24,597 nt of DNA from a virus: the IMG/VR virus record IMGVR_UViG_3300046028_007527, positions 1 to 24,597 of that record; one strand, 5' to 3'. Below the pieces are notes generated by a model that saw only the letters and a program-made list of their open reading frames with translations, made no database searches and was not told the DNA's origin. A program made the translations under genes and the position numbers. Positions 2,890 through 18,910 of this stretch are shown piece by piece (position 1 is the stretch's first letter; the number at the start of each line of letters is the position of its first letter).

Positions 2890-2896
2890 GTCCGCG

Positions 2897-4047: not shown

Positions 4048-4600
4048 GCAAATTCATGTGTAGTGTTACCAGCATTGCGTAGGAAAGTGCATGTGCCTTC
4101 TTAAAGGTGTACCCCCGACTATCATCCCCGTTCCAGACTGATTCGAACACTTCTGCCCAGGGACAGTTTTGCAAGTGTGCTTTGCCTGGGCGAATAATTG
4201 AGATAAACGCAGCCATCTTGGGTATAGAGTCTGGACGCATCGACGCTAGCAAATCTGCATAGTTTCCCACGTGAACCAACTGCTTGGCCCAAGCTATGTC
4301 ATTCCAGATTCGATCCCACGGAGGGGCGGCTGCTAGCATAGTTGCATAGTGATCAGGATTTTGAATCAGTTGGTACACACTCATGTTCAAGAAGTCAATC
4401 TTAAAATACCCACGCTGGTCGGCTGCGGTGTAATCAATTGCAGCACATCCATGCACCGGATCTACAGGAATATCTGTAACATACACACCCGAATTGTGCT
4501 TACGCACTGTGTTGTCTACCCGTTGCATAGCTGGGATATGATCAATCAACTTTAGCACTAGTGATCGATCTGCAAAATCGATATCAATGTCTGCACTCAT
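4037..4600 (-). CDS. Miniature DnaE-like (DNA polymerase III alpha) protein
   Basis: Four blocks of this 187-residue protein line up in order with the palm and neighbouring regions of bacterial DnaE. DIDIDF (residues 4-9) matches PDFDVDF, which holds the catalytic pair D401/D403 of E. coli DnaE. KHNSGVYVTDIP (34-45) matches KHAGGVVIAP. YFKIDFLNMS (65-74) matches the VKFDFLGL block with the third catalytic aspartate (here D69). AFISIIRPGK (131-140) and YTFKKAHALSYAM (164-176) match the ALFRPGP and GFNKSHSAAYAL blocks. DnaE is normally about 1,100 residues, so the PHP domain, most of the fingers and the clamp-binding C-terminus are missing. The ATG is preceded directly by AGGAG, an unusually short spacing, just after the upstream TAG. 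It lies next to a zinc-finger gene and a possible clamp-loader gene. The homology is inferred by eye; activity is unknown. Confidence 0.72.
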   Translation of the reverse strand: MSADIDIDFADRSLVLKLIDHIPAMQRVDNTVRKHNSGVYVTDIPVDPVHGCAAIDYTAADQRGYFKIDFLNMSVYQLIQNPDHYATMLAAAPPWDRIWNDIAWAKQLVHVGNYADLLASMRPDSIPKMAAFISIIRPGKAHLQNCPWAEVFESVWNGDDSRGYTFKKAHALSYAMLVTLHMNLLNH

Positions 4601-4603
4601 CTC

Positions 4604-5302
4604 CTACCAGCCTGCTTGTTTTAAAATTTCCCGAGCATAGTCGCGATCTTCTGGATGGTCTCGAAGTCGTTGGCTCCAGGCGTCAGTCTCGACCATGGGC
4701 CAAATCATAGTCAACTGCTCAGAATTAAGTCGTGCCAATAGCTCATGTCCAGAATCACAGTTGTACACAGCCCAAGCCGATACCCGGCCGGTCGAGATTG
4801 CATAGCATAGTGTATTAGCGTTGCCATAACGAAGATAGTCGTGTGCTGCGTTACTAGTTTTTTCCTGCCAATCGATACTGGATTCAATTGATCGGGCTAG
4901 TGCGTCTCCCACCGATTCAGTGCGCAGGTACTCCATCAAGTATTCATAGTATACAGATTCATGGCACCAGTGATCAATCTTTTTATTTTTCTTAACCACC
5001 CAGTTGACAAACTGCGGCACATTGACAGCTCGGATCTCTTGACAGTAACGGCCAAATTTAACAAATGCCCTGTAGTAGGGACTGGCGGCAAAATCCTTGA
5101 ACGTTTTGTTCTTTGCTGTGCCTTGTGTGATCTCGTAAAATCTCAAGTACGCTTGGAGGGCAATCGTGACACCTACTTCGTCCCGCTCAAGATAGCGACG
5201 TTTGGATTCACACACATGTGTGGCCAAGCTTGGTTCCCGCTTAAACGCACGGGCACAATGGTTGCAAGTGTATTCAGTCTTTGTCAGTGTAGCCGTGTTC
5301 AC
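4604..5302 (-). CDS. C2H2/C2HC zinc-finger protein of unknown function
   Basis: This 232-residue protein begins with a single zinc-finger-like motif at about residues 13-31: CNHCARAFKREPSLATHVC, a CxxC pair followed by a spaced histidine and cysteine. The remainder is alpha-helical and rich in aromatic and charged residues, with SVYYEYLMEYL near the middle, and I do not recognise it. A zinc finger in a phage replication cluster suggests DNA or RNA contact. The start appears to be a GTG at 5300-5302, inside the 3' end of the upstream gene (29-base overlap), with an AGAG stretch about nine bases ahead of it. It is followed after three bases by the DnaE-like gene, so the two are probably made together. 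Confidence 0.75.
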   Translation of the reverse strand: MNTATLTKTEYTCNHCARAFKREPSLATHVCESKRRYLERDEVGVTIALQAYLRFYEITQGTAKNKTFKDFAASPYYRAFVKFGRYCQEIRAVNVPQFVNWVVKKNKKIDHWCHESVYYEYLMEYLRTESVGDALARSIESSIDWQEKTSNAAHDYLRYGNANTLCYAISTGRVSAWAVYNCDSGHELLARLNSEQLTMIWPMVETDAWSQRLRDHPEDRDYAREILKQAGW

Positions 5303-5720
5303 GCAAATACTCTTTCAAATCTTTCTTGTTGATGAGTTTGGATAGTGTGTCAATATCCGATAGCTTAGTGGTAGGCATGAGCTCCATGAGAGTTTTCTTG
5401 ATCTCATTGGATCCTGCTTCCTTCTTCTTGGGCGATATCCACTGATGCCGGTGTGTGCCCATGCCTGGACTCACAGCGGTAGCGCACAACCACTGTAGCC
5501 GAGGGTGACGGTTTATAGCAAAGAAGTGCTTGTTGAGTCTCTCGTTACATGAGATTAGATAAAACTCTTGCAGTTCTCGACTACCATGCACCGCCGATCC
5601 CCACCGTATCATAAGATAGTTGGAGAATTTTTTACGTTCCTCATCGGTGAGACTGTTATAAAATTCTCGATCCTTGAGATCGAAACAATTCATCTCATTT
5701 TGAATGCTAAGTTTATCCAC
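5274..5720 (-). CDS. Possible sliding-clamp-loader small subunit (T4 gp62-like)
   Basis: This is a helical, basic protein of about 148 residues: DLKDREFYNSLTDEERKKF, then a central region with NERLNKHFFAINRHPRLQWL, then PKKK, and a C-terminal helix pair ending KKDLKEYLREHGYTDKD. Size, composition and layout resemble T4 gp62-type clamp-loader subunits, but no signature motif makes this certain. The reading frame is open back to 5798, but that stretch lies over the upstream coiled-coil gene. I prefer the GTG at 5718-5720, which overlaps the end of that gene, or the ATG at 5693; neither has a strong Shine-Dalgarno. The partner large subunit (gp44) and clamp (gp45) are not in the window. Confidence 0.55.
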   Translation of the reverse strand: MDKLSIQNEMNCFDLKDREFYNSLTDEERKKFSNYLMIRWGSAVHGSRELQEFYLISCNERLNKHFFAINRHPRLQWLCATAVSPGMGTHRHQWISPKKKEAGSNEIKKTLMELMPTTKLSDIDTLSKLINKKDLKEYLREHGYTDKD

Positions 5721-5919
5721 GGCGTATGCTGTTGATTGCGCTGGTTGCTTCGTCAAGTTGATTTTGCATGCGTCGCATTTCGCGTTGCATGATAGCAATA
5801 GTGCGGGATTGATCTTGCAGCCGTTGATCTAACAAATCAATCTTCGAGCCAACTTGCTTTTGTTCAGGTGCCCGGTCCGGGGCATCAACTTTGGGTCCAC
5901 TTTTTTCGTATTGTTCCAT
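5713..5919 (-). CDS. Small coiled-coil protein
   Basis: This 68-residue protein, MEQYEKSGPKVDAP onward, has a charged and proline-containing first third. It is followed by about 40 residues with heptad-like spacing (KIDLLDQRLQDQSRTIAIMQ and the next helix), which predicts a parallel coiled coil. The frame is open further upstream, but the ATG at 5919 sits one base after the upstream stop and has AAGG nine bases ahead of it, so I take it as the start. It has no known name. It may be an oligomerising partner of the neighbouring replication proteins. Confidence 0.68.
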   Translation of the reverse strand: MEQYEKSGPKVDAPDRAPEQKQVGSKIDLLDQRLQDQSRTIAIMQREMRRMQNQLDEATSAINSIRRG

Positions 5920-5920
5920 A

Positions 5921-6421
5921 CTACCATGCCTTGTCATATTGTACAACTTCACAGTTTCGACTGATGTCTTTTACAAAGTACACGCATCGAGGTTTCGGCC
6001 CATCGTCAATGGGTACCGATAAAATTTGCCCATTTTTAAGCTTGGGAGCATACCAAGTAACTTCATGATAAACGTCCACAATCTCAATATCCGGGAAGCT
6101 GGGCCTAAAACTACTTAGCGGGTTAAACTCAAATGCCTTGAACCCACGATCATTGATACTGGTTAACGGTAGCATTTCTAAGTCTCCTAGATCCGGCTCG
6201 CCTATTAGAATTTGCCAATCCACTGGCATTTTAATAGTTTTGTCCCCAATACGCAGCACTAGTGCAGGGGCGCTAAAGCTTTCTAAAAAAATCAACGGGA
6301 TATAATAGTAGTCTGGACTGTTAGGGTCTGAATTGTCTAGGATAGCAAAACGCATGTCGTCGACTTCATCTGGCAAGGTGTCCAAGTCGTAGTGCTGATT
6401 CTCAAGGGTTAGGATTCTCAT
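5921..6421 (-). CDS. Conserved T4-like phage protein of unknown function
   Basis: This 166-residue acidic protein begins MRILTLENQHYDLDTLPDEV. Its pattern of segments (MRFAILDNSDPNSPDYYYIP, LPLTSINDRGFKAFEFNPLS, TWYAPKLKNGQILSVPI) looks like a conserved family of marine and freshwater T4-like phages that I cannot name. No catalytic motif is evident. ATG 6421 is preferred over the earlier in-frame start at 6448, because a near-consensus sigma70 promoter sits exactly upstream and its -10 element would lie inside the longer reading frame. Transcription should begin at the A of this ATG, giving a leaderless mRNA. It heads the 6421-4037 gene run. Confidence 0.8.
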   Translation of the reverse strand: MRILTLENQHYDLDTLPDEVDDMRFAILDNSDPNSPDYYYIPLIFLESFSAPALVLRIGDKTIKMPVDWQILIGEPDLGDLEMLPLTSINDRGFKAFEFNPLSSFRPSFPDIEIVDVYHEVTWYAPKLKNGQILSVPIDDGPKPRCVYFVKDISRNCEVVQYDKAW

Positions 6422-6427
6422 ATTTTT

Positions 6428-6456
6428 ATTATACACAGATATTAACAAAAAGTCAA
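6428..6456 (-). promoter_or_regulatory. Sigma70 promoter TTGACT-17-TATAAT driving the 6421-4037 run
   Basis: Read on the minus strand, TTGACT (6456-6451) is followed by a 17-base spacer and TATAAT (6433-6428). Six bases then separate the -10 element from the ATG at 6421, so the expected +1 is the A of the start codon. The -35 element contains the TGA stop of the gene at 6453. The match to consensus and exact spacing make this a strong early-type promoter. Confidence 0.82.
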
Positions 6457-7289
6457 CAGTGAGCTATCATATGTTCTAAATGCCGTTGCATGGCCAGTAC
6501 CCAGCAATCGTATAACTTCCGGATCTTATCACTGTCAAAATCATCAAATCCAAGTTGGGTATACAACATTTCTATATGTAATCGGTATTGCTCCCAGTCT
6601 AGGTACCACTCGGCATCCCACTGGTGGTTCCAATTGGTTGCTCCTAATAATGTTTGATATTTAGGGTAGCCCTCCTTTGCCAATGGTTTTGCTAGTATTG
6701 ATTTAATTGAGTTAATATGTTCAGCAATCCGTTGATACTCTGGCTTTTGAAATTCTATAATAGTACAAGGCGGCCTTGCTGGCCAATCAACTTTCTTGTG
6801 TCTTTTCCACCAATTTTTAAGTGCCCGCATCTGAGGAATCAAATGAGGTTGGGAAAGAGGCCAGCGGTAGGTTAGTATAAACTCTTGACAGTTTGTAAAA
6901 TGTATCACCTTGGCGTTTGGCCATATTTTTAACACATGGGCTAAATGGTCTAAGGCATGTGTTACAACGAAGAAATATTTTTGTTGCTTAATTAAGTCGA
7001 CTATTATGTCGTGATATTCTTGATCAATTGGCACGCCAGGCGACTGATCTACCCCAAATAATTCACCACAGCCTAAGTCGATGTCAGTCCAGGTATTATG
7101 TGTTGAATCATATCGATCACAGAGTAAATCCAATTTTTCTTTGCCATCGAGTTTAGTTAGATCACAATGTTGTAATACTGCGTGTTGGCTTAGTGCTAAA
7201 CTGTTTATTAGAAATTTACCCCCTGATAGACTTGGATAAGAAACAATAATTATTCTATCGGTAGCAAGTTGCGCAGGGGTTAACCGCAT
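6453..7289 (-). CDS. P-loop/sulfotransferase-like protein
   Basis: This 278-residue protein has an N-terminal IIIVSYPSLSGGKFLINSLA, a strand, glycine-rich loop and helix much like the SYPRSG-type PAPS-binding loop of sulfotransferases. Later, WPNAKVIHFTNCQEF resembles the PNAK-type strand that precedes the 3'-phosphate-binding region in that superfamily. Many tryptophans occur in the C-terminal half. A sulfotransferase-fold enzyme acting on glycan or lipid would fit the surface-glycan theme, but key residues are not certain and the fold may only be related. It overlaps the upstream SGNH gene by 10 bases. Its stop is inside the -35 of the next promoter. Confidence 0.7.
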   Translation of the reverse strand: MRLTPAQLATDRIIIVSYPSLSGGKFLINSLALSQHAVLQHCDLTKLDGKEKLDLLCDRYDSTHNTWTDIDLGCGELFGVDQSPGVPIDQEYHDIIVDLIKQQKYFFVVTHALDHLAHVLKIWPNAKVIHFTNCQEFILTYRWPLSQPHLIPQMRALKNWWKRHKKVDWPARPPCTIIEFQKPEYQRIAEHINSIKSILAKPLAKEGYPKYQTLLGATNWNHQWDAEWYLDWEQYRLHIEMLYTQLGFDDFDSDKIRKLYDCWVLAMQRHLEHMIAHC

Positions 7290-7969
7290 AATGGGTCGGT
7301 AATCAACAGTTGATGTATATTTTTTGCAATAACTTCTTGAGTTGCATGGTCTGTATGAAATAGACCATAACTATCTCCAAACTTATATGCTATCTCCCCA
7401 ACATGAGCATCGTTAAAACGAATAGGAATAATCTTATGTTTAATAATTTGATCTCGCCAATATTCAAACATCCAGGTGTCGATTTCAGTCTGAAGTTTAT
7501 CATTATACAGGTGCTTAATATATAAATTAACTGCTAAAATTTGTTCGTCAGATAAGTCCACAAATGGATTGTCTTTTAATCCTTGCCAAACTGTGCTTAA
7601 CACGTTGCCATTTTTTACATTACCCACATACTTGGTGCCAGTGCTGGCTTGGTTTGGATTAGAGTAAATGAAATTTTTTAAACCTTTTTCTATAGTAAAA
7701 TTTTGCCGGTTCATCATGATTTCAACTCTTGCTGACCAAGTTTGATTATATACAATAACGTGTGGAGACAGATTGATTGCTTCTCGAATTTGAAACCATA
7801 TTCCAACGTTACTCATTGCACCGTGTGCAAAGTTTATAACTGTGTATCCGTAACGGTCTTCTAATATTTGACTAAAGTGAGCACGATCACTAACGTCTTC
7901 GATTGTAGAATTGCCCGACGCACAATAACTATCCCCACATACAATTATTTTTATGCTATTTTCATCCAT
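7280..7969 (-). CDS. SGNH/GDSL hydrolase-like protein
   Basis: This 229-residue protein has an N-terminus KIIVCGDSYCASGNS with the GDS block at residues 12-14. INFAHGAMSN near residue 50 corresponds to the glycine block II region, with an asparagine-containing VIVYNQTW near residue 75 for block III. The C-terminal FHTDHATQEVIAKN supplies a histidine near the expected block V place. It overlaps UvsW by 19 bases and the next gene by 10, so it is embedded in a coupled operon. It is probably a paralogue of the SGNH genes at 1, 1356 and 17411, though divergence is high. Substrate unknown. Confidence 0.76.
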   Translation of the reverse strand: MDENSIKIIVCGDSYCASGNSTIEDVSDRAHFSQILEDRYGYTVINFAHGAMSNVGIWFQIREAINLSPHVIVYNQTWSARVEIMMNRQNFTIEKGLKNFIYSNPNQASTGTKYVGNVKNGNVLSTVWQGLKDNPFVDLSDEQILAVNLYIKHLYNDKLQTEIDTWMFEYWRDQIIKHKIIPIRFNDAHVGEIAYKFGDSYGLFHTDHATQEVIAKNIHQLLITDPLCG

Positions 7970-9420
7970 TCTAGTTTTTCCTGTGTATGCGGATAGTTTG
8001 CCTCTTTGTAAAAAACTTTACGTTTGGTCAAATGTCGTTTGGCAAATTTGCATGTGGATGTTATATCCCAAATTTGAACATGATCTTTATCTTCTGCCTT
8101 GCGGATGCCGCGGCCGATGCTTTGTATAACTCGAACAAAACTCTTGCCTGGTTCTAGCATGACTAGATTGAAAATACGAGGAATATTAATACCCACAGCA
8201 GCAACTCCGTATGTGGCTACAATGATCTTGCCAGTTGCGTCAGCTACTTCGTCGTACTCATCTTGGCGATCTTTTGCCTTGGTTGCACCTGATACAAATA
8301 CTGCACTCTCTCCTAGCCGCTCGACTAATGCTTTCCCGGCAGCTACTCGGTCCACGAGCACCAGTGTGTTACCAGTCTCATTAACACGAGCAACCAAGTC
8401 AGCAATTGTATCAAGTCTGCCCGGTTCTTCAAGTAAGTATTTAAGCTCGGCTTGGTATTCTTTAAACTCCACATGATCCACTAACTGCACTACGTTTACA
8501 TGACATTGTGCTAGTACACCACGCTCCTGTAACTCACTAGCTGCAAGACGACTTACAACGGGACCCAAGCTTACATGCAGGGCCTGGAATTCAAATGCTT
8601 CCTTGGGCACTGTGCCAGTGAGTCCCCATCGAATTGGGATTTGACTCATCACTCCTGTGAGCAGGGTCTTGAGTGCGTCAGCCTTGGCCATGTGTACTTC
8701 GTCTACCATGACGCACACTACGCCCTCGATAAAGTCTTGTATAGTGCAGTCGGCAGTTCCTGATCGGGTGTTTTTCAACAGAACATTGAGACTTTGCCAC
8801 GTACAAATAGTGTGTTGGTGCCCAAACTCCTTTCGATCCCCGAAGTATACACCAACATCTAATCCAATATTGATGTAATCCTTCTCAGTTTGTGTCACAA
8901 GACTCTTGTTGGGCACAATAACAATGCTACGGCCATACGGTCCAATCAAACAACTTAGCGCAGCAGTCATGATAGTCTTGCCGGCACCTGTAGCAACCTC
9001 TTGGATACACTGTGGGTTACTAAGAAAGTTGTTGATGATCTCAACTTGATAATCGCGCAGCTGAATCGGCACTCCTGCCTGTGGGTGTCCTTTAGGCCAA
9101 CACCGATCCTTAAAGGTATCTTCTGTAGCTAGCGCAAACTCAAAAGTTCTAGAGTACTCGCGTTGATCGTCAAGATCAATTTCATAATTGTAATCGTCAA
9201 GTATGGGTAAAATCTCCGGTAGAAGATTAGTATAAGTGCTGCCGCCGAGTTGAAAATAACTGACTTTGCCGTCCCATCGACCTAATCTCACTGCCGGTAA
9301 GTACCTGGCATAAGGTACATCATACTTGAACTTATTAACTAGTGCACGTCGTACATCTAAATCTAATCCTTCTATTTTGATGTTAACTTCATCACGTATT
9401 TGTATTGTACATTGCTTCAT
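7951..9420 (-). CDS. uvsW: UvsW-like DNA/RNA helicase
   Basis: This is a superfamily 2 helicase of 489 residues, close to T4 UvsW (about 500). Motifs in order: LRDYQ (Q-motif-like, 121-125), VATGAGKT (142-149, Walker A), VMVDEVHMAK (238-246, DEVH box), GLTGTVPKE (266-274, motif III), then VATYGVAAVGINIP (401-414) and QSIGRGIRK (433-441, motif VI with the arginine finger). The N-terminal 90 residues match the UvsW substrate-binding extension in size. In T4, UvsW drives branch migration, replication fork regression and R-loop unwinding and switches replication from origin-dependent to recombination-dependent mode. The start overlaps the upstream stop as ATGA. This is the surest gene in the window. 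Confidence 0.95.
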   Translation of the reverse strand: MKQCTIQIRDEVNIKIEGLDLDVRRALVNKFKYDVPYARYLPAVRLGRWDGKVSYFQLGGSTYTNLLPEILPILDDYNYEIDLDDQREYSRTFEFALATEDTFKDRCWPKGHPQAGVPIQLRDYQVEIINNFLSNPQCIQEVATGAGKTIMTAALSCLIGPYGRSIVIVPNKSLVTQTEKDYINIGLDVGVYFGDRKEFGHQHTICTWQSLNVLLKNTRSGTADCTIQDFIEGVVCVMVDEVHMAKADALKTLLTGVMSQIPIRWGLTGTVPKEAFEFQALHVSLGPVVSRLAASELQERGVLAQCHVNVVQLVDHVEFKEYQAELKYLLEEPGRLDTIADLVARVNETGNTLVLVDRVAAGKALVERLGESAVFVSGATKAKDRQDEYDEVADATGKIIVATYGVAAVGINIPRIFNLVMLEPGKSFVRVIQSIGRGIRKAEDKDHVQIWDITSTCKFAKRHLTKRKVFYKEANYPHTQEKLEWMKIA

Positions 9421-10316: not shown

Positions 10317-10465
10317 AAAGACAGGTGGTGCTTTTAAGGGTAATTACACTAAACCTAGCCATCGTTTGTTTGTCCACAATACCAGTATAGTCAAGAGTCT
10401 CCTAAAAACCCAACAGGATTATAGACAATAATAGTACGCCTTGGCATGAAAAATATTTAGCGGCT

Positions 10466-10494
10466 AAAAAAAGAGACACCGTTTTACGGGTGTC
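10466..10494 (-). terminator. Rho-independent terminator of the AAA+ ATPase operon
   Basis: On the minus strand a GGTGTC/GACACC-type stem of six pairs (10475-10480 with 10489-10494), extended by a bulged G-C, closes an eight-base loop and is followed after two bases by seven consecutive T. It lies 36 bp after the ATPase stop. A smaller inverted repeat at 10507-10522 (CCCTA/TAGGG) lies between. The rest of the gene-free stretch 10317-10530 holds only the uvsW-operon promoter at its left border; I see no other gene or site there. Confidence 0.82.
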
Positions 10495-10530
10495 CCACAA
10501 AGGATTGCCCTACTAGGGGTAGTTTGATTC

Positions 10531-11559
10531 TTATGCGTTACGCATACAAGTACATTCAGCAAGCGACTTCCAATTGCCCGGGGACACTTTGGTCAAATCA
10601 GCAATCTTCAGCGCCATGCGCAAGCTCACTTCGCGCAGGCGCATGTGATTGTCAGTCATGAACTCAATAATAGCGTCGCCCAGTTCCGGGGTAAAGTCAT
10701 AGTCTTGAAACAGGCTACCCCTACGGAAGATCTGCTTGATGCGCAAGATCTTGTCACGCATAGTGTTCAGCGTAAGATCAAGAAAGTGACAACGACTCTG
10801 CAACGCTTCCAAGTGATCTTGCAGCCGCTTGCTCTTAAGGTGATCAAACTTCAAGTTGGTGATAAAGATCACAGAACCCTTGAAGTCGAACTGATCTGGC
10901 ACTCCCTCGCGGCGCAACATGTTGCTGTCGGCGTTCCAATGTATACGACGCTTCTTGCCCGAGTCCAGCGCAGCCTTAAGAATGTTCAACGCAACATCGT
11001 CAAGCAGGATGCTGTCGCAGTCGTCAAACACCAGCACGTTCTTGGCATCACTGTGCTTGTACAAAGTACAGTACAAGCCAATTGGGGTCATTGCGCCCTT
11101 GATGACTTCGTATTTGGGTTTGCGATTGCCCACAACGTCAAACAGCCCAGACTTTTCCAACTGGTGCTCAACACCGTAGCTCTTGCCCACGCCCGGGGGG
11201 CCCACAACGATCATAGCACGGATGTCGCCGGCAATTGCAGCCAGTGTCATCTCGTCGAGCATGTTAAACCGCGTTTCAATACGCGCCATGATCTCGTCGT
11301 CAGTTTCTTGCGTCACAGCTGACATGGGGGTCACAGTAATGCCTGCAACAGGAGCAGTGGATCCGGTAATAATCACGTCTTCAATTCCGTTCACTTTAAT
11401 ACGCACAACATCAAAATCGGGTCCAAAGTACCCGTCGCTCTTGACCGTAACAAACCCGTTTCCGCGAGCGCCAACAGTAAAATCCTTGACTAGCTCAAAC
11501 GATGCATTCTGCACCGGGGTATTACGGTATGTACCTTTAATCACTTGAACTTGGGTCAT
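10531..11559 (-). CDS. AAA+ ATPase
   Basis: This 342-residue protein has an N-terminal domain of about 90 residues without recognised motif, then an AAA+ core. Walker A is GPPGVGKS (120-127), Walker B is LVFDDCDS (176-183) and the sensor 1 asparagine is in VIFITNLKF (N235). QSRCH (255-259) may carry the arginine finger. Walker B has DD in place of the usual DE, which could lower hydrolysis or reflect a subfamily habit. Single-domain AAA+ proteins of this type are common in T4-like phages and act as remodellers, with unknown targets. It has its own promoter and GGAG ribosome-binding site six bases before the ATG, inside the 64-bp repeat, and a strong terminator downstream. Confidence 0.88.
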   Translation of the reverse strand: MTQVQVIKGTYRNTPVQNASFELVKDFTVGARGNGFVTVKSDGYFGPDFDVVRIKVNGIEDVIITGSTAPVAGITVTPMSAVTQETDDEIMARIETRFNMLDEMTLAAIAGDIRAMIVVGPPGVGKSYGVEHQLEKSGLFDVVGNRKPKYEVIKGAMTPIGLYCTLYKHSDAKNVLVFDDCDSILLDDVALNILKAALDSGKKRRIHWNADSNMLRREGVPDQFDFKGSVIFITNLKFDHLKSKRLQDHLEALQSRCHFLDLTLNTMRDKILRIKQIFRRGSLFQDYDFTPELGDAIIEFMTDNHMRLREVSLRMALKIADLTKVSPGNWKSLAECTCMRNA

Positions 11560-11620
11560 TTCTTGCTCCGTTTTGCTACAGTAAATACATTATAGCACAA
11601 GCTGATTTATTGGGCAACCG
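11557..11620. repeat. 64-bp exact direct repeat, copy 1 (promoter-RBS-ATG cassette)
   Basis: Positions 11557-11620 are identical to 11874-11937. Read on minus, the unit holds a -35 element, an extended -10, a 23-base leader with GGAG, and the ATG. In this copy the first 14 bases also encode the last four residues (AVAQ) and stop of the small gene at 11607. Confidence 0.95.
11589..11617 (-). promoter_or_regulatory. Sigma70 extended -10 promoter of the AAA+ ATPase gene
   Basis: On minus, TTGCCC (11617-11612), a 17-base spacer and TATAAT (11594-11589), with TGC just before the -10 (TGCTATAAT, extended -10). The expected +1 is at about 11582, giving a 23-base leader with GGAG at 11569-11566, six bases before the ATG. 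The -35 lies in the coding end of the upstream gene. Confidence 0.8.
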
Positions 11621-11876
11621 CTTCGGTACCGCAAAGCACTGAGATTCGCCCCGGGTAACGAGCGTCGAACATCATTGCCCCTTCCTGCACAGTGCTAAAG
11701 GGCTGATCGAACTTCTCACTCTTGCCGTCCCAAACTCGACTAATTCCACGGCACTTGATAACTTCGTTTTGCACTTCGGTCACCACGCCGATCATGTAGC
11801 AGTCGTAGCGCCCGGCAAAATCCAGGGCCCGGATAACATCACCAACTTCGGCTACTTGAACTTTGGACTTCAGCAT
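11607..11876 (-). CDS. Small phage protein of unknown function
   Basis: This 89-residue protein begins MLKSKVQVAEVGDVIRALDF. Its strand-rich pattern with small glycine turns (YDCYMIGVVTEVQNEVIKCR, then SRVWDG) suggests a small beta-barrel of the SH3/OB size, but I do not recognise a family. It has no membrane segment. It is flanked on both sides by the same 64-bp promoter cassette. Its own start ATG and GGAG lie in copy 2, and its last four codons lie in copy 1. Recombination between the two copies would remove this gene and leave the ATPase gene with an intact promoter. Confidence 0.78.
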   Translation of the reverse strand: MLKSKVQVAEVGDVIRALDFAGRYDCYMIGVVTEVQNEVIKCRGISRVWDGKSEKFDQPFSTVQEGAMMFDARYPGRISVLCGTEAVAQ

Positions 11877-11937
11877 TTCTTGCTCCGTTTTGCTACAGTA
11901 AATACATTATAGCACAAGCTGATTTATTGGGCAACCG
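11874..11937. repeat. 64-bp exact direct repeat, copy 2 (promoter-RBS-ATG cassette)
   Basis: Identical over 64 bases to 11557-11620, offset by 317 bp. In this copy the stop-containing end does not close any gene I can recognise: upstream of it the same frame meets a TGA after a few codons. Confidence 0.95.
11906..11934 (-). promoter_or_regulatory. Sigma70 extended -10 promoter of the small gene at 11876
   Basis: The second copy of the TTGCCC-17-TATAAT promoter with TGC before the -10 (11934-11906 on minus). It drives the small gene and, unless terminated, also the ATPase gene. Confidence 0.8.
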
Positions 11938-11970
11938 ACCTCATCTTCAGCAGTCATCCTGCTATACAAA

Positions 11971-12010
11971 TTCTGCAAGCCTAAAGCCTATGCTATAATT
12001 AACATAGGAG
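11971..12010 (+). promoter_or_regulatory. Extended -10 promoter and AGGAG for the methyltransferase at 12025
   Basis: TGCTATAAT ends at 11999, the same extended -10 as in the divergent cassette. A weak TTCTGC stands 17 bases upstream (11971-11976). AGGAG at 12006-12010 lies 14 bases before the ATG, rather far. A second TATAAT at 12015-12020 is only four bases from the ATG. Confidence 0.55.
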
Positions 12011-12024
12011 AAATTATAATAGCA

Positions 12025-12717
12025 ATGTCACTCAATCCATACAACGCCAACCAATGTAAATCCATTGTAATAGATAATTATGATTCTGCTCTTGAAAAAA
12101 AATATAGTAGATGGAAGGTCAATGACTACCGTAAAATTTATACATTTGATGATATAGTGCATTGTCGTCAGACTCCACGATATTCAACTGTTATAAGTGT
12201 TATTCCATGTGCGTCATTTTATTACTTGCATTACCTTGTTGAACTACAACCAGATAAGATTGTAGATATTGGATGTGGGATGAATTTTTTTAAAGATATT
12301 ATACCCGGGGTTGTCGGCATTGATTACGACGGCCCGGAGATAGACATACAAGATTTTTTTGATACTACTTTTAGTATCAATCATGAAAATCAATTTAGCT
12401 GTGCATTTTCAATTGATGCTATGCATTTTATTCCAATAACAGAATTTTATAATCGAGTTATGGAATTTAAAAACATTATAAAAACAGGTGGCAGAGGGTA
12501 TATTGCCATGAATGTTGCAAGAATGGTTGAATACTCTGAGCCCGAAATTCTGTTAGAGTTATTTAACACCACCCAACCATCAAGTATTCAACTTGCTATG
12601 TACATTAATTGTGAAATTAAAAAATTACCCATTAAGTGGTTAGTAATTGATAATCTGATCGTAGAAAAATATGATGAGTTGATTGATGGTAATATTAGGT
12701 TGGTTTTTGAAAAATAA
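12025..12717 (+). CDS. SAM-dependent methyltransferase (class I)
   Basis: This 230-residue protein has motif I VDIGCGMNFFKDI at about residues 80-92, followed by GVVGIDYDGPEID with the acidic ribose-binding residue (D100), and a post-motif region FSIDAMHFIPITEFYNRVME typical of small-molecule methyltransferases. The final strand GGRGYIAMNVARM fits motif III. It is divergent from the small gene at 11876 and convergent with the gene ending at 12775, so it is a single-gene transcription unit. The substrate is unknown; given the window, a sugar is more likely than DNA, and no DNA-methyltransferase DPPY/NPPY motif is present. Confidence 0.82.
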   Translation: MSLNPYNANQCKSIVIDNYDSALEKKYSRWKVNDYRKIYTFDDIVHCRQTPRYSTVISVIPCASFYYLHYLVELQPDKIVDIGCGMNFFKDIIPGVVGIDYDGPEIDIQDFFDTTFSINHENQFSCAFSIDAMHFIPITEFYNRVMEFKNIIKTGGRGYIAMNVARMVEYSEPEILLELFNTTQPSSIQLAMYINCEIKKLPIKWLVIDNLIVEKYDELIDGNIRLVFEK

Positions 12718-12732
12718 ATGTCAACTAAAGGA

Positions 12733-12754
12733 AAACCCACATCACTGTGGGTTT
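12733..12754. terminator. Bidirectional hairpin between convergent genes
   Basis: A perfect eight-base inverted repeat, AAACCCAC and GTGGGTTT, encloses a six-base loop between the methyltransferase stop (12717) and the convergent stop (12775). The T content after the stem is better on the minus strand (TTTTCCTTT) than on plus, so termination is likely for minus and possible for plus. Confidence 0.65.
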
Positions 12755-12774: not shown

Positions 12775-13254
12775 TTACAGCCAGCCAGGCTCAGTGTTAA
12801 GAGTAGCGGAAAAATTAAACCCATCAGGTAAGGTCCAAGCCCATTGTCCTGTTGGTGTCGCATACCGTTGCCGAGGTTCTTCGTTTACTGTCACATCTGT
12901 GAACGGATCTTGACATGTTTCCCCGTCTACCAGCTGAAGATAATCCGTTGGTCCGAAAGTTTCTGCATCGCCGCTCTCTAATGCATAATTATTAATAGTC
13001 AAGCTTAACGTTATTTTACAATTAACCGGAACAACCGTCAGAATCGACTCTCCCATGTAGTCAATAGTATTAGTCCACTCAAATAATGGCAAAGCAGTAG
13101 TCGACTCTCCGGGCGGGCCTGTATAAGGCACAGGACCATCATACAGTTCCACCCCACCTAATGTTACAATAATCTGTCCATCGGCATTATCGAGGGTGTC
13201 ATAAACATACCCAAGTTGCTTGAAAGTTCTAATAATAGTCGAGTCTGTTACCAT
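12775..13254 (-). CDS. Small beta-rich protein, probably structural
   Basis: This 159-residue acidic protein begins MVTDSTIIRTFKQLGYVYDT. Alternating hydrophobic strands (IIVTLGGVELYDGPVPY; ILTVVPVNCKITLSLTINNY) and a tail rich in P, T, W and F suggest a beta-sandwich virion or fibre-accessory protein. No enzyme motif is seen. The frame is open upstream to 13311, but ATG 13254 has GGAG in a proper place and the longer version runs into the end of the glycosyltransferase gene. A TAAATA core lies near the upstream stop and may serve as a weak late promoter. Confidence 0.65.
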   Translation of the reverse strand: MVTDSTIIRTFKQLGYVYDTLDNADGQIIVTLGGVELYDGPVPYTGPPGESTTALPLFEWTNTIDYMGESILTVVPVNCKITLSLTINNYALESGDAETFGPTDYLQLVDGETCQDPFTDVTVNEEPRQRYATPTGQWAWTLPDGFNFSATLNTEPGWL

Positions 13255-13273
13255 AAAAATTCTCCAATATGCT

Positions 13274-14023
13274 TTATTTAGTCGGCAGTACATTCCAGTA
13301 TCTGGATACAACGGAATCTGTTACTTCATGAGGCTTAGGGCTGCCGTGAAAAATCATCACACTGGTTTTGGGATCTAGTACTGTACCGGTGCCGGGCTGG
13401 CGATAGGTACGTGTTTTTATATCGAGCCCGCCATCTTTGATTTGCCAACGCCAGCTTTGTACAGCATCACTATCAAAGAATCTACGGTCTTTAAAGTCAA
13501 CTGCTACATTTAAAAAATCCTGATCGCCGTGGAATTGCCTGGCAGTGTCAAGAATATTGCGAGTTTGAAAACTGGCCCAGATACGTTTCCACCGTTCTGT
13601 GTCCCAGTACATTATGCTGGAGTTTAGACCGGTCCAGGAGGGTCTCCAGAGGTGTCTAAAATCTCGTACAGCCCAAAAGTGGTGAGGACTTAGTCCCCAG
13701 ATCCAATCAATACTGCCTGTGATCACCACGTCAAGATCCATGTACAGCAGGTTTCCGGGCACATGCGCTGGATCAAACATCTGCATCTTGTACCACCAGG
13801 CCTTTTTTGGACCACTGATACCAGGCCAGTTTATTAAGTCGTGCTTGATCATTGGTGCTGGCACCGGTCTCGATGGTTCAGTAAACACATGAAACTTTAT
13901 TTTGTACTGGGTGTTAGCTTGCAGCATATTGTACAAGTTTTCAACATACCGCCAGTCATACATGTTTCCGTGTATCACGCAGGCAAAATTCTTTTGGTCA
14001 GCATGATTCTTATGTTTCTTCAT
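13274..14023 (-). CDS. Glycosyltransferase with DxD motif (GT-A fold)
   Basis: This 249-residue protein starts its core with FACVIHGNMYDWRYVENLYN, a nucleotide-sugar-binding strand-helix pair. The DxD motif is in LLYMDLDVVI (D96, D98). PSWTGLNSSIMYWDTERW and QFHGDQDFLN resemble acceptor-side segments of GT8/GT32-like enzymes. KTSVMIFHGSPKPHEV at the end matches the FHG-x-PKP ending common in these families. It transfers a sugar from a nucleotide donor; donor and acceptor cannot be read from sequence. It is divergent from the nucleotidyltransferase-cupin gene with only 39 bp between starts, and each start has a late-promoter-like box. Confidence 0.85.
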   Translation of the reverse strand: MKKHKNHADQKNFACVIHGNMYDWRYVENLYNMLQANTQYKIKFHVFTEPSRPVPAPMIKHDLINWPGISGPKKAWWYKMQMFDPAHVPGNLLYMDLDVVITGSIDWIWGLSPHHFWAVRDFRHLWRPSWTGLNSSIMYWDTERWKRIWASFQTRNILDTARQFHGDQDFLNVAVDFKDRRFFDSDAVQSWRWQIKDGGLDIKTRTYRQPGTGTVLDPKTSVMIFHGSPKPHEVTDSVVSRYWNVLPTK

Positions 14024-14027
14024 TTTG

Positions 14028-14035
14028 TATTTACA
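14028..14035 (-). promoter_or_regulatory. Late-promoter-like box TGTAAATA for the gene at 14023
   Basis: On minus the octamer is TGTAAATA, one mismatch from TATAAATA, with four bases before the ATG at 14023. The transcript would start at or within a base of the start codon. It faces away from the exact box at 14050. Confidence 0.5.
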
Positions 14036-14049
14036 TCAAAAAGTACACA

Positions 14050-14057
14050 TATAAATA
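14050..14057 (+). promoter_or_regulatory. T4 late-promoter-like TATAAATA box for the 14063-18092 operon
   Basis: An exact TATAAATA in the context ACATATAAATAG, the same 12 bases as before the gene at 2897. Five bases separate it from the ATG at 14063, so by T4 geometry +1 is the A of the start codon. Confidence 0.65.
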
Positions 14058-14062
14058 GAACA

Positions 14063-14827
14063 ATGAAAACTATCGTTCTTGCAACCGGTGGATTTGACCC
14101 CATCCACTCGGGACACATTGCGTATCTCAAAGCAGCACGTCAACTAGGAGACATTCTTGTAGTTGGTGTAAATTCCGATGAGTGGGTAGCTCGCAGAAAG
14201 GGGCGAGCATTTATGCCAATCTTAGAACGCACTGAGATTGTCCAGAATATCAAAGGTGTAGATTTTGTAATCACATTTGACGATCGTGACGACAGTGCAC
14301 GGCATGCCATTGAAATGGTGCGTCAGAGTTATCCACAGGACAAGATTATCGTCGCCGATGGTAACCAGCGCACAGACAAAAATATGCCCGAGCTGAGACT
14401 AGCAGACACTAATTTAGAATTTAAGTTTAACGTGGGTGGCGTGATTGAGAAAAACTCCAGTAGTTGGCTACTGGAAGAATGGCGTGCTCCTAAAACACGC
14501 CGCATGTGGGGGCATTATTGCGTAGTGCATGACTCACCCGGTGTCAAAGTTAAAGAACTTACAGTAGAGCCCGGGGCTGCACTAAGTATGCAAAGACACC
14601 AGGATCGCGCCGAGTTCTGGCTTGTGACCAAAGGCGAGGCCAGCATATACACGCTCAATGCCGAGACTGATCTAGAACTGCAAGGACGGTACACACAGCA
14701 TCAATACTTGCATATTGGACTACATTGTTGGCATCAGTTGGTTAATGAAACTTCAAACCCATTGACTCTTATTGAGATTCAATACGGTAGTCGTTGTACA
14801 GAAGAAGATGTAGAAAGAAGATTATGA
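14063..14827 (+). CDS. Nucleotidyltransferase (HldE/TagD-like) fused to a mannose-6-phosphate isomerase-type cupin
   Basis: This 254-residue protein has two domains. Residues 1-135 are a cytidylyltransferase-like nucleotidyltransferase: ATGGFDPIHSGHIAYLK has the HxGH signature (H15-H18), VGVNSDEWVARRKGR matches the HldE C-terminal/TagD family, and KIIVADGNQRTDKN stands where the second nucleotide-binding motif is expected. Residues 150-245 form a cupin like the type II phosphomannose isomerase domain of ManC: VKELTVEPGAALSMQRHQ, then RAEFWLVTKGEA, with H179 and E184 as likely metal ligands. The pairing suggests one protein that activates a sugar phosphate and isomerises or binds a related sugar. 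It is first in a five-gene overlapping operon, and its stop overlaps the next start (ATGA). Confidence 0.86.
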   Translation: MKTIVLATGGFDPIHSGHIAYLKAARQLGDILVVGVNSDEWVARRKGRAFMPILERTEIVQNIKGVDFVITFDDRDDSARHAIEMVRQSYPQDKIIVADGNQRTDKNMPELRLADTNLEFKFNVGGVIEKNSSSWLLEEWRAPKTRRMWGHYCVVHDSPGVKVKELTVEPGAALSMQRHQDRAEFWLVTKGEASIYTLNAETDLELQGRYTQHQYLHIGLHCWHQLVNETSNPLTLIEIQYGSRCTEEDVERRL

Positions 14828-15510
14828 AACCTATTCCAATTTTCATTGGATACGATCCACGTGAAGCAATTGCATTCCACGTTTGTGCAAACTCTATCAT
14901 TAGGTACGCCAGTCGGCCAGTGGCCATCATCCCCTTGGCCCTAAACTTGTTTGATGACTATAAAGAAACACACACCGACGGCAGCAATCAATTTATCTAC
15001 AGTAGATTCCTTGTCCCTCACCTTATGAACTTTCAGGGGCATGCAATCTTTATTGATGGCGATATGGTTGTTTGCGACGATATTATCAAGTTATGGGACT
15101 TGCGTCGCTTGGAACTAGATGTTCAAGTGGTCATGCATGACTATAAAACACGCATGACAGAGAAATACCTAGGGGCTAAAAATGAGAACTATCCGCGCAA
15201 GAACTGGAGCTCGGTAATTTTATGGAACTGTAACAGTTTTCCTAACCGTAAGCTTACGCCAGAGTTTATTCAGAAGTCTACCGGGGCCGAACTACATCGT
15301 TTTACCTGGCTGCAGAACGAACGAATTGGAGAGCTGCCCCCGGAGTGGAACTGGTTACCAGATGAATATGGCCCAAATGAGGATGCCAAACTGTTGCATT
15401 ATACTCTAGGCACGCCTTGCTTCCACGAATTTGCCACTACTAATCAAGGCAGTGAATGGCACCGGGAACGTATGCTAACAGAGTATTGTCAGCAAAGATC
15501 AATCGAATGA
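14824..15510 (+). CDS. Glycosyltransferase, GT8-like
   Basis: This 228-residue protein begins MKPIPIFIGYDPREAIAFHV. The DxD motif is FIDGDMVV (D78, D80), preceded by YSRFLVPHL, a pattern of phage and bacterial GT8-like enzymes in which an arginine-containing helix precedes the metal site. SSVILWNCNSF and LLHYTLGTPCFHE lie where the acceptor pocket and the final histidine metal ligand are expected. The start used is ATG 14824, overlapping the preceding stop as ATGA; an in-frame ATG at 14794 lies inside the cupin coding region and is unlikely. The stop overlaps the next ATG in the same way. Donor and acceptor unknown. Confidence 0.85.
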   Translation: MKPIPIFIGYDPREAIAFHVCANSIIRYASRPVAIIPLALNLFDDYKETHTDGSNQFIYSRFLVPHLMNFQGHAIFIDGDMVVCDDIIKLWDLRRLELDVQVVMHDYKTRMTEKYLGAKNENYPRKNWSSVILWNCNSFPNRKLTPEFIQKSTGAELHRFTWLQNERIGELPPEWNWLPDEYGPNEDAKLLHYTLGTPCFHEFATTNQGSEWHRERMLTEYCQQRSIE

Positions 15511-16517
15511 ACTGGGAACAGGTAGGATCATCGTATGTTCCGCCTCCACCTCCGCCACCGCCTCCACCTCCGCCACCGCATGTGTTTGACATGATACCGC
15601 CAACAGTTAAAACATTATTCGATGACATTCTCAAATATCGAGTTGACCCGGCCGGCACATATTATGGTATAACACTAGACGTTTTAGTTAATCAGCTAAC
15701 ACAGTTAGACAACAGTGCGGCCGCGGCAATCGGAACAGACGAAAAAGATACAAAATTTGAGAGGAAGGGCAAAATGTACGATCCATTTTTGCAAAGTTTT
15801 ATACTGGGATCTGGCGGACAAATTTCTGACTGGGAAAAACACAGTGCCAGCATGGCTCCAGCGGTATTTAGAGGCATAACCAACCGCAAAGAAATGGAGA
15901 TCTGTCGTTCTGTTGGCCGCGACTTTTACTACATAGACACAGGATATTTTGGCAATGGTCGCAAAAAAATCTATCATAGAATTACACGCAACGATGTACA
16001 AAACTTTGGCCCTATAATTGAACGACCCGGTGATAGGTTTGGTGCCACTGGTGTAAAATTAAGAAAATTTAGAGGCGGCCAGAACATATTGTTGGCCCCG
16101 CCCAGTCAAAAACTATTGAATATCTACAACATCAATCTTGAAGAATGGCTAGAACAAGTAAAAACAGAGATTGGATCAGTTACAGATCGACCCATTGTGT
16201 TAAGAACCAAACAGGGACGTAGTACCAGGGTCAATGATGATACCATGGAAATGGCCCTGGACCGCGACGTACATTGCCTTGTGACATTCTCCAGCATTGC
16301 TGCTGGCGAAGCATTATTGCACGGTAAACCGGCTATCACACTTGGTCCCAATGCTGCTGCTGCGCTGTGCAGTCAATCAGTTGCGGAGATTGAAAATTTA
16401 AAAATACCCACACTGGACGAAGTAGACGCCTGGGCACGACACATGGCCTACTGCCAATTTACCGAAGTAGACATGCGTGATGGCACAGCCTGGCGTATAC
16501 TGAACGAACATGTATGA
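15507..16517 (+). CDS. Capsule-polysaccharide-type transferase-like protein with a 13-proline tract
   Basis: This 336-residue protein begins with a short leader (MNWEQVGSSYV), then 13 consecutive prolines and an alpha/beta protein. TFSSIAAGEALLHGKPAITL near the C-terminus resembles the serine-rich donor-binding loop of KpsC/KpsS and CDP-glycerol-transferase-type enzymes, where SS-x-x-GEAL and GKP are typical. DRPIVLRTKQGR lies where a HPxP or RxK phosphate-binding segment would be. I take ATG 15507, which overlaps the preceding stop as ATGA; the ATG at 15456 is inside the previous gene. The next gene, at 16510, looks like a distant paralogue. The exact reaction is unknown. Confidence 0.75.
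   Translation: MNWEQVGSSYVPPPPPPPPPPPPPHVFDMIPPTVKTLFDDILKYRVDPAGTYYGITLDVLVNQLTQLDNSAAAAIGTDEKDTKFERKGKMYDPFLQSFILGSGGQISDWEKHSASMAPAVFRGITNRKEMEICRSVGRDFYYIDTGYFGNGRKKIYHRITRNDVQNFGPIIERPGDRFGATGVKLRKFRGGQNILLAPPSQKLLNIYNINLEEWLEQVKTEIGSVTDRPIVLRTKQGRSTRVNDDTMEMALDRDVHCLVTFSSIAAGEALLHGKPAITLGPNAAAALCSQSVAEIENLKIPTLDEVDAWARHMAYCQFTEVDMRDGTAWRILNEHV
15543..15578 (+). repeat. Two exact 18-bp tandem repeats encoding polyproline
   Basis: The unit CCTCCACCTCCGCCACCG occurs twice in phase, after a single CCG codon, and gives 13 prolines in a row. The unit is a whole number of codons, so copy-number change would alter the tract by six residues without a frameshift. Confidence 0.92.
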
Positions 16518-17409
16518 TGTTGTTGTTTATCTAAGTTCCTTACAAAAACAAAGTCCGGGTAGAAAAGTTGATACCTTGACAGCGTTTGCGGATGGCGCAC
16601 GATCTCACGGCGCCACAGTACACATAGAAAAACAAAATACATACACTCCTTCAAAGTTGGCCGTAATATTAGGATGGGCCAGTCCTGAACAACACACACC
16701 CAACATAAAACTACGAGCACACATAATACAACAGCAGCAGCAGTCGGGCAATCACACAATGTGTATTGATGCAAATTGTTTTAAATTTGCAGACCATGAC
16801 AGTCGGTATCTACGGTACAGTATAGGCAGTCCGTTTTACGACACCGGCAACTATGCTAATAAAAATTCAGACTCTTCCAGATGGAAGCAATTGTCAAAAG
16901 ATCTTGGAATTGCTGTGCCTGGGTGGCATTCAACTGGAAATTACATACTGTTACTGATGCAACGGGACGGTGGGTTTACCATGAAAGGTCTGCATCCGCT
17001 GGACTGGACCGAACAAAAAATAAAACTCATACAGCAACACACTGACATGCCCATCGTGTTACGCCCACATCCGGGGAAAATAGCTGATCCGACTGCTTTG
17101 ATACGACCCGGAGTCACAGTAAGTGATCCAATCCGACGCTCGTTATTGAAAGATTTAAAACAGTCCGCCTGCGCTTTTGTGTTTAACAGTAGCAGTGGTG
17201 TTGCTGCAATACTGCAAGGAGTTCCGTTGTGGGTAGATGATCCCAGTAGTGTGTGCTGGCCGGTGGCCAATACTGATGTCAAAACAATTCACAATCCGAT
17301 TATGCTCGATCGTACACAATGGTTAAATGATTTAAGTGCATGCCACTGGACCGACGAGGAAAGCCGTCAAGGATTGATCTACAAAAAATTCTTACCTTAT
17401 CTTGTTTAA
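16510..17409 (+). CDS. Capsule-polysaccharide-type transferase-like protein
   Basis: This 299-residue protein begins MYDVVVYLSSLQKQSPGRKV. MPIVLRPHPGKIAD near residue 185 is the HPG phosphate-binding segment of capsule-type and CDP-glycerol-type transferases. ACAFVFNSSSGVAAILQGVP near 220 is the matching serine-rich loop, comparable to FSSIAAGEALLHGKP in the preceding gene. WTEQKIKLIQQHTD precedes the HPG segment, as expected for the GT-B linker helix. The two neighbours are probably diverged duplicates acting on one glycan. It overlaps the previous gene by eight bases and is followed after one base by the SGNH gene start. No signal peptide or membrane helix is visible. Confidence 0.8.
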   Translation: MYDVVVYLSSLQKQSPGRKVDTLTAFADGARSHGATVHIEKQNTYTPSKLAVILGWASPEQHTPNIKLRAHIIQQQQQSGNHTMCIDANCFKFADHDSRYLRYSIGSPFYDTGNYANKNSDSSRWKQLSKDLGIAVPGWHSTGNYILLLMQRDGGFTMKGLHPLDWTEQKIKLIQQHTDMPIVLRPHPGKIADPTALIRPGVTVSDPIRRSLLKDLKQSACAFVFNSSSGVAAILQGVPLWVDDPSSVCWPVANTDVKTIHNPIMLDRTQWLNDLSACHWTDEESRQGLIYKKFLPYLV

Positions 17410-17410
17410 T

Positions 17411-18092
17411 ATGTCACAAAAAGTTATTGCTTGTTTTGGTTGTAGTTTTACAGGGGGTGTTTGATTCTTGTGAACCAAGACAGTCTTGGCCATATCAATT
17501 GTCATTGGCAAGACCAGATTTAAAAGTTTATAATTTTGGAAGACAAGCAACCAGCGTATTATTTTCGTTAAACATGATTGATCAAGTGTCTGAACAATTA
17601 AAATCAGATTTAGTGATAACACAACTTACCGAACCAACAAGAATGACGTTTTATGATCCAGGATTTAAATTAAATCTAGAACAAGACCTATTACAAATTT
17701 CAGATAATTATTCGGTGTTACCGATGAGCATCAAAGGCATTTGGCCGTTCAATGGTCTCAGCGGAAAAAGACAAACCAAGGAAAATTTGTCTAATCCTGC
17801 AACGGCAGAAAAATTTCAATTCCTAAAAAATCTTATGGTCATGCATGAAGATCAAAATCATTTTGATCCTGAGTACAGAGCATTTTCTCACAGAGCAAGA
17901 TCGTTATCCGATCTAGTATTCTTTCACAGAAAACTATATAGAGAAGTTCCGGGGCTAGAAAATGTACCCTGTGTAGAAAAGTTATTAGGCACTGAAAAAT
18001 TTTTAGATCTAGTTATAGACAAAGGATTTCACTTTGGTATCGACGGTGCCCAATGGATTTCAAACTGGGTTGTTGACAAATTGAAATTATAA
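17411..18092 (+). CDS. SGNH hydrolase-like protein with an apparent +1 frameshift near 17462
   Basis: The ATG at 17411, one base after the upstream stop, opens MSQKVIACFGCSFTGGV with a GCSF nucleophile block (S12), and then meets TGA at 17462-17464. The rest of the protein continues in the +1 frame: DSCEPRQSWPYQLSLARP, VYNFGRQATSVLF, LVITQLTEPTRM, and a C-terminal DKGFHFGIDGAQ that matches the SGNH DxxH block. Joined, they give about 226 residues, an ordinary SGNH length, so both halves belong to one gene. The junction AGGGGGTGTTTGAT has a run of five G and three T, so an indel (error or true mutation) is the simplest cause. Its likeness to the prfB +1 recoding site is the alternative. A longer +1-frame reading from 17340 is spurious, since it runs through the end of the preceding gene. 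Confidence 0.78.
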
Positions 18093-18095
18093 ATA
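18088..18095 (+). promoter_or_regulatory. T4 late-promoter-like TATAAATA box for terC
   Basis: An exact TATAAATA overlapping the TAA stop of the SGNH gene. Expected +1 near 18101 leaves a leader of about 50 bases, ending in AAGGA at 18143-18147 before the ATG at 18152. Unlike the other boxes here it feeds a normal leader. Confidence 0.58.
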
Positions 18096-18096
18096 C

Positions 18097-18124
18097 GTTT
18101 TGTTCAACAGGCTATAGACAAAAC
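18097..18124 (+). other. Stem-loop in the terC leader
   Basis: A perfect seven-base inverted repeat, GTTTTGT and ACAAAAC, encloses a 14-base loop. There is no T run after it, so it is not an obvious terminator. A transcript from the late box at 18088 would start inside the left arm, so the full stem would form only on read-through transcripts from the 14063 operon. Confidence 0.5.
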
Positions 18125-18151
18125 TGTGATACCATAACTTTTAAGGAATAT

Positions 18152-18841
18152 ATGGAACTCTTTACGATCCAAGCCCTTTGGGCATTTTTAGCTATCATCT
18201 TGATAGACATTGTATTAGCCGGCGATAACGCTCTTGTTATCGGAATGGCGGCTAACAAATTACCAGAACACCTACGCAAGAAGGCGATCTTCTGGGGTAC
18301 CTTTGGTGCCATTGCCATACGCTTTGTTTCAGTTGCGGCATTGACTTACTTGTTACTGATTCCGGGACTCCGAGCCATCGGTGCAGCAGCACTGGTCTGG
18401 ATTGGTTGGAAGTTAGTATTTGATGCAGGCGAACACAATGTAAACGCCCGGGACACTTTTTGGGGCGCCTTGTCTACCATTATAGTTGCTGATGCTGTCA
18501 TGGGCATTGACAATGCACTAGGCATTGCTGCAGCCGCTGATGGAAATTTTGTGTTGGTGATTGCTGGCTTGTTAATCAGTGTGCCTATCATTTTGTTCGG
18601 TGCTACCATGGTCAGCAAGATTCTTCAACGCTGGCCCGACACAGTGTTTGCGGGATCGTTTGTGTTGTTTGCTGTTGCTATGTTGATGTTGATGAAAGAA
18701 CCATTAATGGCCACATGGTGGGCAGGACTAGTACCTTGGGCAGCAGTTGTTATGCCGTGGGCATTTGCCTTGGTTGTTACTGCTGTTCAGTATAATCAAG
18801 CACGACTGCACCTGCATAAACGATATTTGTTTAAGTCATAA
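18152..18841 (+). CDS. TerC-family integral membrane protein
   Basis: This 229-residue protein has about seven hydrophobic helices and both TerC hallmark segments: LIDIVLAGDNALVIGMA in helix 1 and IIVADAVMGIDNALGIAAAA in the middle, each with acidic residues inside the membrane (GDNA and GIDNA). LPEHLRKKAIFWGTFGAIAIR is the usual loop and second helix. The length fits the short TerC/YjbE group. TerC relatives such as Alx and YkoY are linked to Mn2+ export and metal supply to secreted or membrane enzymes; tellurite resistance is the historic name. A normal AAGGA ribosome-binding site precedes the ATG. It is the only clear membrane protein in the window and probably came from a bacterial host. 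Confidence 0.93.
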   Translation: MELFTIQALWAFLAIILIDIVLAGDNALVIGMAANKLPEHLRKKAIFWGTFGAIAIRFVSVAALTYLLLIPGLRAIGAAALVWIGWKLVFDAGEHNVNARDTFWGALSTIIVADAVMGIDNALGIAAAADGNFVLVIAGLLISVPIILFGATMVSKILQRWPDTVFAGSFVLFAVAMLMLMKEPLMATWWAGLVPWAAVVMPWAFALVVTAVQYNQARLHLHKRYLFKS

Positions 18842-18875
18842 AAAATCCCCGTCGGTCTACTCATCACTGAGGGAT
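18840..18875 (-). terminator. Possible weak terminator of the minus-strand glycan operon
   Basis: On minus, ATCCC (18875-18871) can pair with GGGAT near 18850-18845 across a loop of about 20 bases, followed directly by six T. The five-pair stem is short, so this is tentative. The position, 36 bp past the stop at 18911 in a 69-bp convergent gap, is right. Confidence 0.38.
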
Positions 18876-18910
18876 CTAACGTGTATAGTTTGTTTTTGAT
18901 GCCGGGCTGA

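Follow-up and report, generated by a model that had tools for sequence, protein, structure and literature searches.

An exact 64-bp promoter-RBS-ATG repeat around a small phage gene and its cassette family in T4-like phages

Genes and promoter elements at the repeat locus

The window (the whole stretch of DNA analysed here, 24,597 nucleotides) contains a 64-nt direct repeat on its minus strand. The two copies, at 11557-11620 and 11874-11937, are 100% identical and lie 317 nt apart from start to start. They form the sole long exact repeat within the 24.6-kb window, and the probability that a 64-mer recurs by chance in this length is negligible (~N^2/2 x 4^-64, by arithmetic). The original prediction had proposed a search for further copies of the 64-mer in the phage record; no third copy was found in the window, which is the whole record. 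Inverted repeats were not found at the borders of either copy. In close relatives, the corresponding region runs terminator - Pa - gene A - Pb - gene B - Pc - nrdC.10, where Pa, Pb and Pc are cassettes, gene A is the gene preceding Pb, and the terminator hairpin stands directly before Pa. The window contains the following features:

10531-11559, minus strand: gene for an NrdC.10-like AAA+ protein of 342 aa, the constant downstream neighbour of the cassette
11557-11620, minus strand: cassette copy 1 (Pc), with -35 TTGCCC (11617-11612), a 17-nt spacer, extended -10 TGCTATAAT (TGC-TATAAT, 11597-11589), leader, GGAG (11569-11566) and the ATG of the nrdC.10 homologue (11559-11557)
11607-11876, minus strand: gene B, 89 aa, an ORFan and the cargo of the cassette pair, with its stop codon at 11609-11607
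11874-11937, minus strand: cassette copy 2, which stands before gene B (the Pb position) but has the Pc sequence type, with -35 TTGCCC (11934-11929), -10 TATAAT (11911-11906), GGAG (11886-11883) and ATG (11876-11874)
11938-11948, minus strand: probable 3'-end remnant of gene A (EDEV), the last 11 nt of a block homologous to the relatives, which read GACGAGGACGAGGTCGGTTGA
11949-12719, no strand assigned: module replacing Pa and gene A of the relatives; blastn homology stops at 11948 and restarts at 12720
11960-12010, plus strand: foreign-type cassette of the methyltransferase gene (TATGCTATAATTAACATAGGAG), of the type that flanks this gene in relatives L109-L112
12025-12717, plus strand: methyltransferase-like gene of 230 aa, imported and oriented the opposite way (phrog_4752, E 7.8e-05)
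12733-12754, minus strand: hairpin resembling an intrinsic terminator, kept from the ancestral arrangement, within the homologous block that begins at 12720

Each 64-nt copy comprises -35, extended -10, leader, GGAG and ATG, and this reading of the duplication was confirmed by coordinates and a promoter scan. The GGAG lies six bases 5' of the start codon in both copies, and the scanned region has no extended -10 (TG) sites besides those of the two copies (consensus matches 10/12). Judged by these motifs, the promoter is probably sigma-70-like (host type), and cassette promoters of this kind would be active and early. No RNA stem-loop was found in the window copies, which fold no better than shuffled sequences (z-score +0.28). 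The claim that copy 1 also encodes the AVAQ-stop end of the small gene is correct as well: the first 14 nt of this copy code for the final residues and the stop codon of gene B. Upstream genes end within the -35 region of cassettes (e.g. window 11607-11617, L085 4937-4950): TTGACC contains TGA and CCAATAA contains TAA in another frame, so that a cassette can end upstream ORFs in two frames.

The gene downstream of copy 1 encodes a homologue of T4 NrdC.10. It matches phrog_1250 over the full length of the profile (positions 1-327 of 327, E 1.6e-83); 1236 phage records match this family, and the name nrdC.10 is the annotation in Acinetobacter phage Acj9. Gene B has no PHROG or Pfam match at E<=0.001 (the best is phrog_7048, E 0.24) and was found only in contigs of the window's species-level clade. 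Within this clade its DNA differs from that of the window by 8-11% while the protein remains 94-98% identical, which indicates purifying selection. The predicted structure is mostly beta at low confidence (AlphaFold, pLDDT 66). According to the original prediction, recombination between the two copies would delete the 89-aa gene without impairing expression of the AAA+ gene. Carried out in silico, this recombination indeed costs exactly 317 bp; one 64-mer remains, and the 342-aa ORF is undamaged.

Relatives of the methyltransferase-like gene in L109-L112 are 54-58% identical to it. In these contigs (~2900-3020, 3690-3790), the methyltransferase gene has a promoter cassette of another, unrelated type, TTTACAAACTCTGCC..CTATGCTATAATTAACATAGGAG, in front of it, and in L109, L110 and L112 this type is also found 3' of the gene. 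This pattern of motifs suggests a one-gene-per-cassette design in another phage lineage. Further along the window, an ORF at 15456-16517 carries a run of ~13 prolines near its N-terminus that is kept in relatives, and 18152-18841 encodes a TerC-family membrane protein (Pfam PF03741, E 2e-39). Reference phages showed no DNA similarity to window 10400-12100 and 1-8000.

Related cassettes and single-gene alleles

The data basis for the following comparisons consists of metagenome contigs of uncultured phages. A related early-promoter cassette of ~65 nt lies directly before nrdC.10 in every one of the ~70 relatives inspected (protein 62-99% identical), with a consensus of approximately GGTTGACCAATAATTC, ~7 nt, TGCTATAATA...AACAAAANGGAGC...ATG. 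The most conserved parts are the -35, the -10 and the GGAG. The original prediction had also proposed a search for the 64-mer in relatives; a search with a cassette profile returned 149 matches (E<1e-3) in 75 loci. Cassettes stand in tandem, two to four at a time, in 47 of the 75 loci, mostly with a spacing of 200-400 bp. Each is usually followed by one small gene, and the encoded proteins fall into 18 small-protein clusters plus nrdC.10. In 68/149 cases, the end of an upstream ORF (>=40 codons) falls at the cassette or within it, as that of gene B does. Large contigs contain many cassettes: 9-11 in the 160-kb G007 (at least 9 of them strong matches), 8 in the 99.6-kb G011 and 10-12 in the 167.6-kb G015, compared to a few weak matches in reversed controls (4 in that for G007 and G011). 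By this sequence comparison, the 64-mer belongs to a dispersed family of predicted early-promoter cassettes in a T4-like phage lineage.

Cassettes from the same genome are more alike than those from different genomes (0.763 vs 0.709, p 0.0005), and this also holds for the leaders alone (0.620 vs 0.578, p 0.002). Near nrdC.10, the identity to paralogues of the own and of foreign genomes differs only slightly (0.691 vs 0.659). Part of this likeness could reflect selection for the same promoter and RBS rather than exchange. Cassettes are all that G015 and the window have in common, and this at first suggested transfer between unrelated phages. We dropped this idea because G007 is related to both (tblastx coverage, 44% of the window; 45-47% with G015). 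Since contigs of both types also co-occur in samples, window-type and G015-type contigs most likely belong to one phage type.

Alleles that differ by the presence of a single gene were found at a sister locus of this phage type, where a 41-nt part with -10, leader, RBS and ATG is common to the cassettes before several genes. A 375-bp module consisting of a 106-aa gene plus a cassette is present in four contigs (G016-G019) and absent in six (G015, G020, G022-G025). The empty alleles keep one complete cassette, the upstream half of which is that of the first copy, and the downstream half is compatible with the second. In L088, a different ORF has taken the place of gene B itself; it starts at the -10 of Pb and reaches nearly to the 3' end of B. 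Of 356 homology breakpoints across 15 contigs, 47 are no more than 15 nt away from a cassette, compared to a mean of 8.3 and a maximum of 20 in 2000 null draws, with the proviso that breakpoints are not independent among homologous contigs. The earlier description of gene B as a ready-made removable insert therefore stands in part: one-gene presence/absence alleles bounded by cassettes do occur at the sister locus, but the exact 317-bp-deletion (B-less) allele or junction of the window itself was not found in IMG/VR. In L129 (contig 3300042544_003411), the start of the 215-aa gene carries a short, eight-residue tandem duplication at the N-terminus (MMYANYRKPVYANYRKPV) that is absent in other alleles.

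Origin of the identical pair

The perfect identity of the two copies had been taken to imply a recent duplication or continuing gene conversion. A recent tandem duplication can be rejected, since all close relatives carry cassettes at both positions, and these are diverged (Pb and Pc agree at 50-55/67). Conversion is the better of the two proposals. The Pc of close relatives matches both window copies at 62-64/64, whereas their Pb, with a quite different leader that is 3 nt longer, reaches 50-53/67. Copy 2 thus occupies the place of Pb with the sequence of Pc, which indicates that Pb was overwritten by Pc-type sequence. The TTGCCC variant of the -35, common to both window copies and the Pc of L083, gives the direction as Pc to Pb. 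Among 66 within-locus pairs, that of the window is the only one near 100% identity; the next best reaches 84%.

Identity by itself does not date the event. Pc of L083 matches window Pc and copy 2 at 64/64, although gene B differs by 8.3% and nrdC.10 by 6.7% between the two contigs. More broadly, Pc shows 0-2 changes in 64 nt while its neighbours differ by 5-8%. Perfect identity is therefore a poor clock. Homology to relatives breaks off at 11948, which is 11 nt past copy 2 and within the apparent end of gene A, and restarts at 12720, the terminator/Pa border. The Pc type of copy 2, the module swap beside it and the foreign cassette together imply that the pair marks at least two exchanges. Elsewhere the window and G002 form a mosaic, with 97% identity over 11.4 kb and 92% and 77% in other parts (window 13223-24597 versus 4578-6456 and 7966-9420), pointing to frequent recombination between close phages.

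The explanation we favour, with a probability of about 80%, is that the repeat belongs to a dispersed cassette family, that recombination between cassettes moves single genes, and that Pb in the window was overwritten by the Pc type. Each cassette, with its host sigma-70-type promoter, short leader, Shine-Dalgarno sequence and ATG, would drive one small accessory gene. The phage recombination system would then exchange, insert or delete a single gene lying between two cassettes, which is possible because these share long sequence stretches. Since the repeat ends at the ATG, any crossover would provide the next gene with a complete promoter, RBS and start codon; upstream genes may end within the -35 region. 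In the window lineage, Pc sequence would have overwritten the Pb cassette, whether by gene conversion, by a double exchange or because B was lost and inserted again, next to the site where the methyltransferase gene replaced the neighbouring module. Homologous recombination at the cassettes is the probable cause of these changes, and gene B may actually be lost at some frequency.

The same machinery could have produced the pair by another route, in which B was first lost from the lineage and a B-Pc unit was then acquired anew from a relative; the resident Pc would be copy 2, while copy 1 would have arrived with B. This history would account for the Pc type of both copies, and alleles with and without a comparable module do coexist at the sister locus. 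We nevertheless regard it as unlikely, though well worth considering: the remnant of the gene A end abuts a complete Pc-type 5' end, which a single crossover would explain only if it fell within the first ~6-11 nt, a second event being needed otherwise, and the B-less intermediate was not found in IMG/VR. Less probable still is that selection acted independently on the two copies, with strong early expression demanding the same -35, -10, leader and RBS, and the identity in the window reflecting convergence or slow evolution. The slow change of Pc and the strong conservation of -35, -10 and GGAG fit such constraint. The divergent, longer Pb leader of the relatives, however, shows that identity at 64/64 positions, spacer and leader included, is not required, and the presence or absence of whole genes and the breakpoints map to cassettes.

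An artefact of assembly, in which reads of two alleles were joined at the repeat, must be considered for a metagenome contig whose junction has no second record in IMG/VR. However, the sequence common to Pb and Pc amounts to ~13 nt at the ATG end and ~7-11 nt at the 5' end. A k-mer misjoin usually needs more shared sequence than this, which means that reads must contain both copy-2 junctions. Relatives, moreover, independently carry a cassette at each of the two positions, and we consider an artefact very improbable. One-gene units bounded by the same sequence might also suggest that the small genes are parts of a specialised mobile element, of the site-specific or homing kind, which travels with the cassette. 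Yet the cargo is spread over 18 small-protein clusters, the cargo genes of the window locus are without significant PHROG match, none reads as a recombinase or nuclease, and the copy borders lack inverted repeats. Such an element is hardly credible here.

Comparison with known systems and implications

Mobile regulatory cassettes of T4-type phages, termed PeSLs, were reportedly described by Arbiol et al. in 2010 and Comeau et al. in 2014. The window locus would resemble them in its repeated early-promoter cassettes among small accessory genes of T4-like phages, placed in many intergenic sites, and in the swapping of gene modules at cassettes, seen here as presence/absence alleles, module replacement and breakpoint enrichment. 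In contrast to PeSLs, the window copies are without stem-loop or terminator, the conserved unit takes in the RBS and ends at the ATG, the cassettes mostly enclose a single gene, and the phages are uncultured. Pa of the relatives, with its adjoining terminator hairpin, fits the PeSL description better than the window copies do. A passage in PMC4503421 cites PeSLs (promoter early stem-loop) as mobile regulatory cassettes of T4-type phages. Because the window copies have no stem-loop, we do not file these cassettes as PeSLs; by analogy they would work like them, and PeSLs are the closest described system.

Other T4-related phages offer partial parallels. T4 amplifies or deletes segments between 6-10-bp repeats and keeps one repeat copy, as documented for tifA/dmd evolution (PMC9391042). 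There, too, direct repeats around accessory genes recombine while one copy and the outer genes stay; the repeats are microhomologies of 6-10 bp, whereas here a 64-bp functional promoter is repeated, and by comparison the longer exact repeat should be a better substrate. In the T4-related Campylobacter group II phages CP21 and CP220, similar repeats separate modules, some enclose genes, and they are proposed to drive rearrangement (PMC4546147). Modules are thus parted by similar repeats in both cases, but those of CP21/CP220 form large arrays of 72-86-bp units between large modules, with no promoter mentioned. T4-like genomes also contain many copies of an early promoter with a phage-specific consensus, often before novel ORFs, according to a passage in PMC1524935. 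This resembles the present cassettes; the passage describes promoters, not their exchange or homogenisation. Phage gene shuffling at mobile cassettes is therefore already known, and what is new is the promoter-RBS-ATG form of the cassette and the unusually clear allele evidence.

Phage early regions are rich in lineage-specific small genes, including anti-defence genes in T4. Repeats that comprise a promoter, RBS and start codon would account for how such genes can be gained or lost one at a time without harm to the next gene. More tentatively, and at somewhat less than even odds, the cassettes could be a standard plug for single-gene cargo, with cassette-to-cassette exchange and continual homogenisation within genomes, which would make the early accessory region a gene-exchange array. 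If true, this arrangement would be integron-like in its result, yet built on general recombination. The cassette also provides a simple sequence handle for finding cargo genes in uncultured phages, and the natural allele pairs could serve to measure rates of gene loss and gain and their fitness effects.
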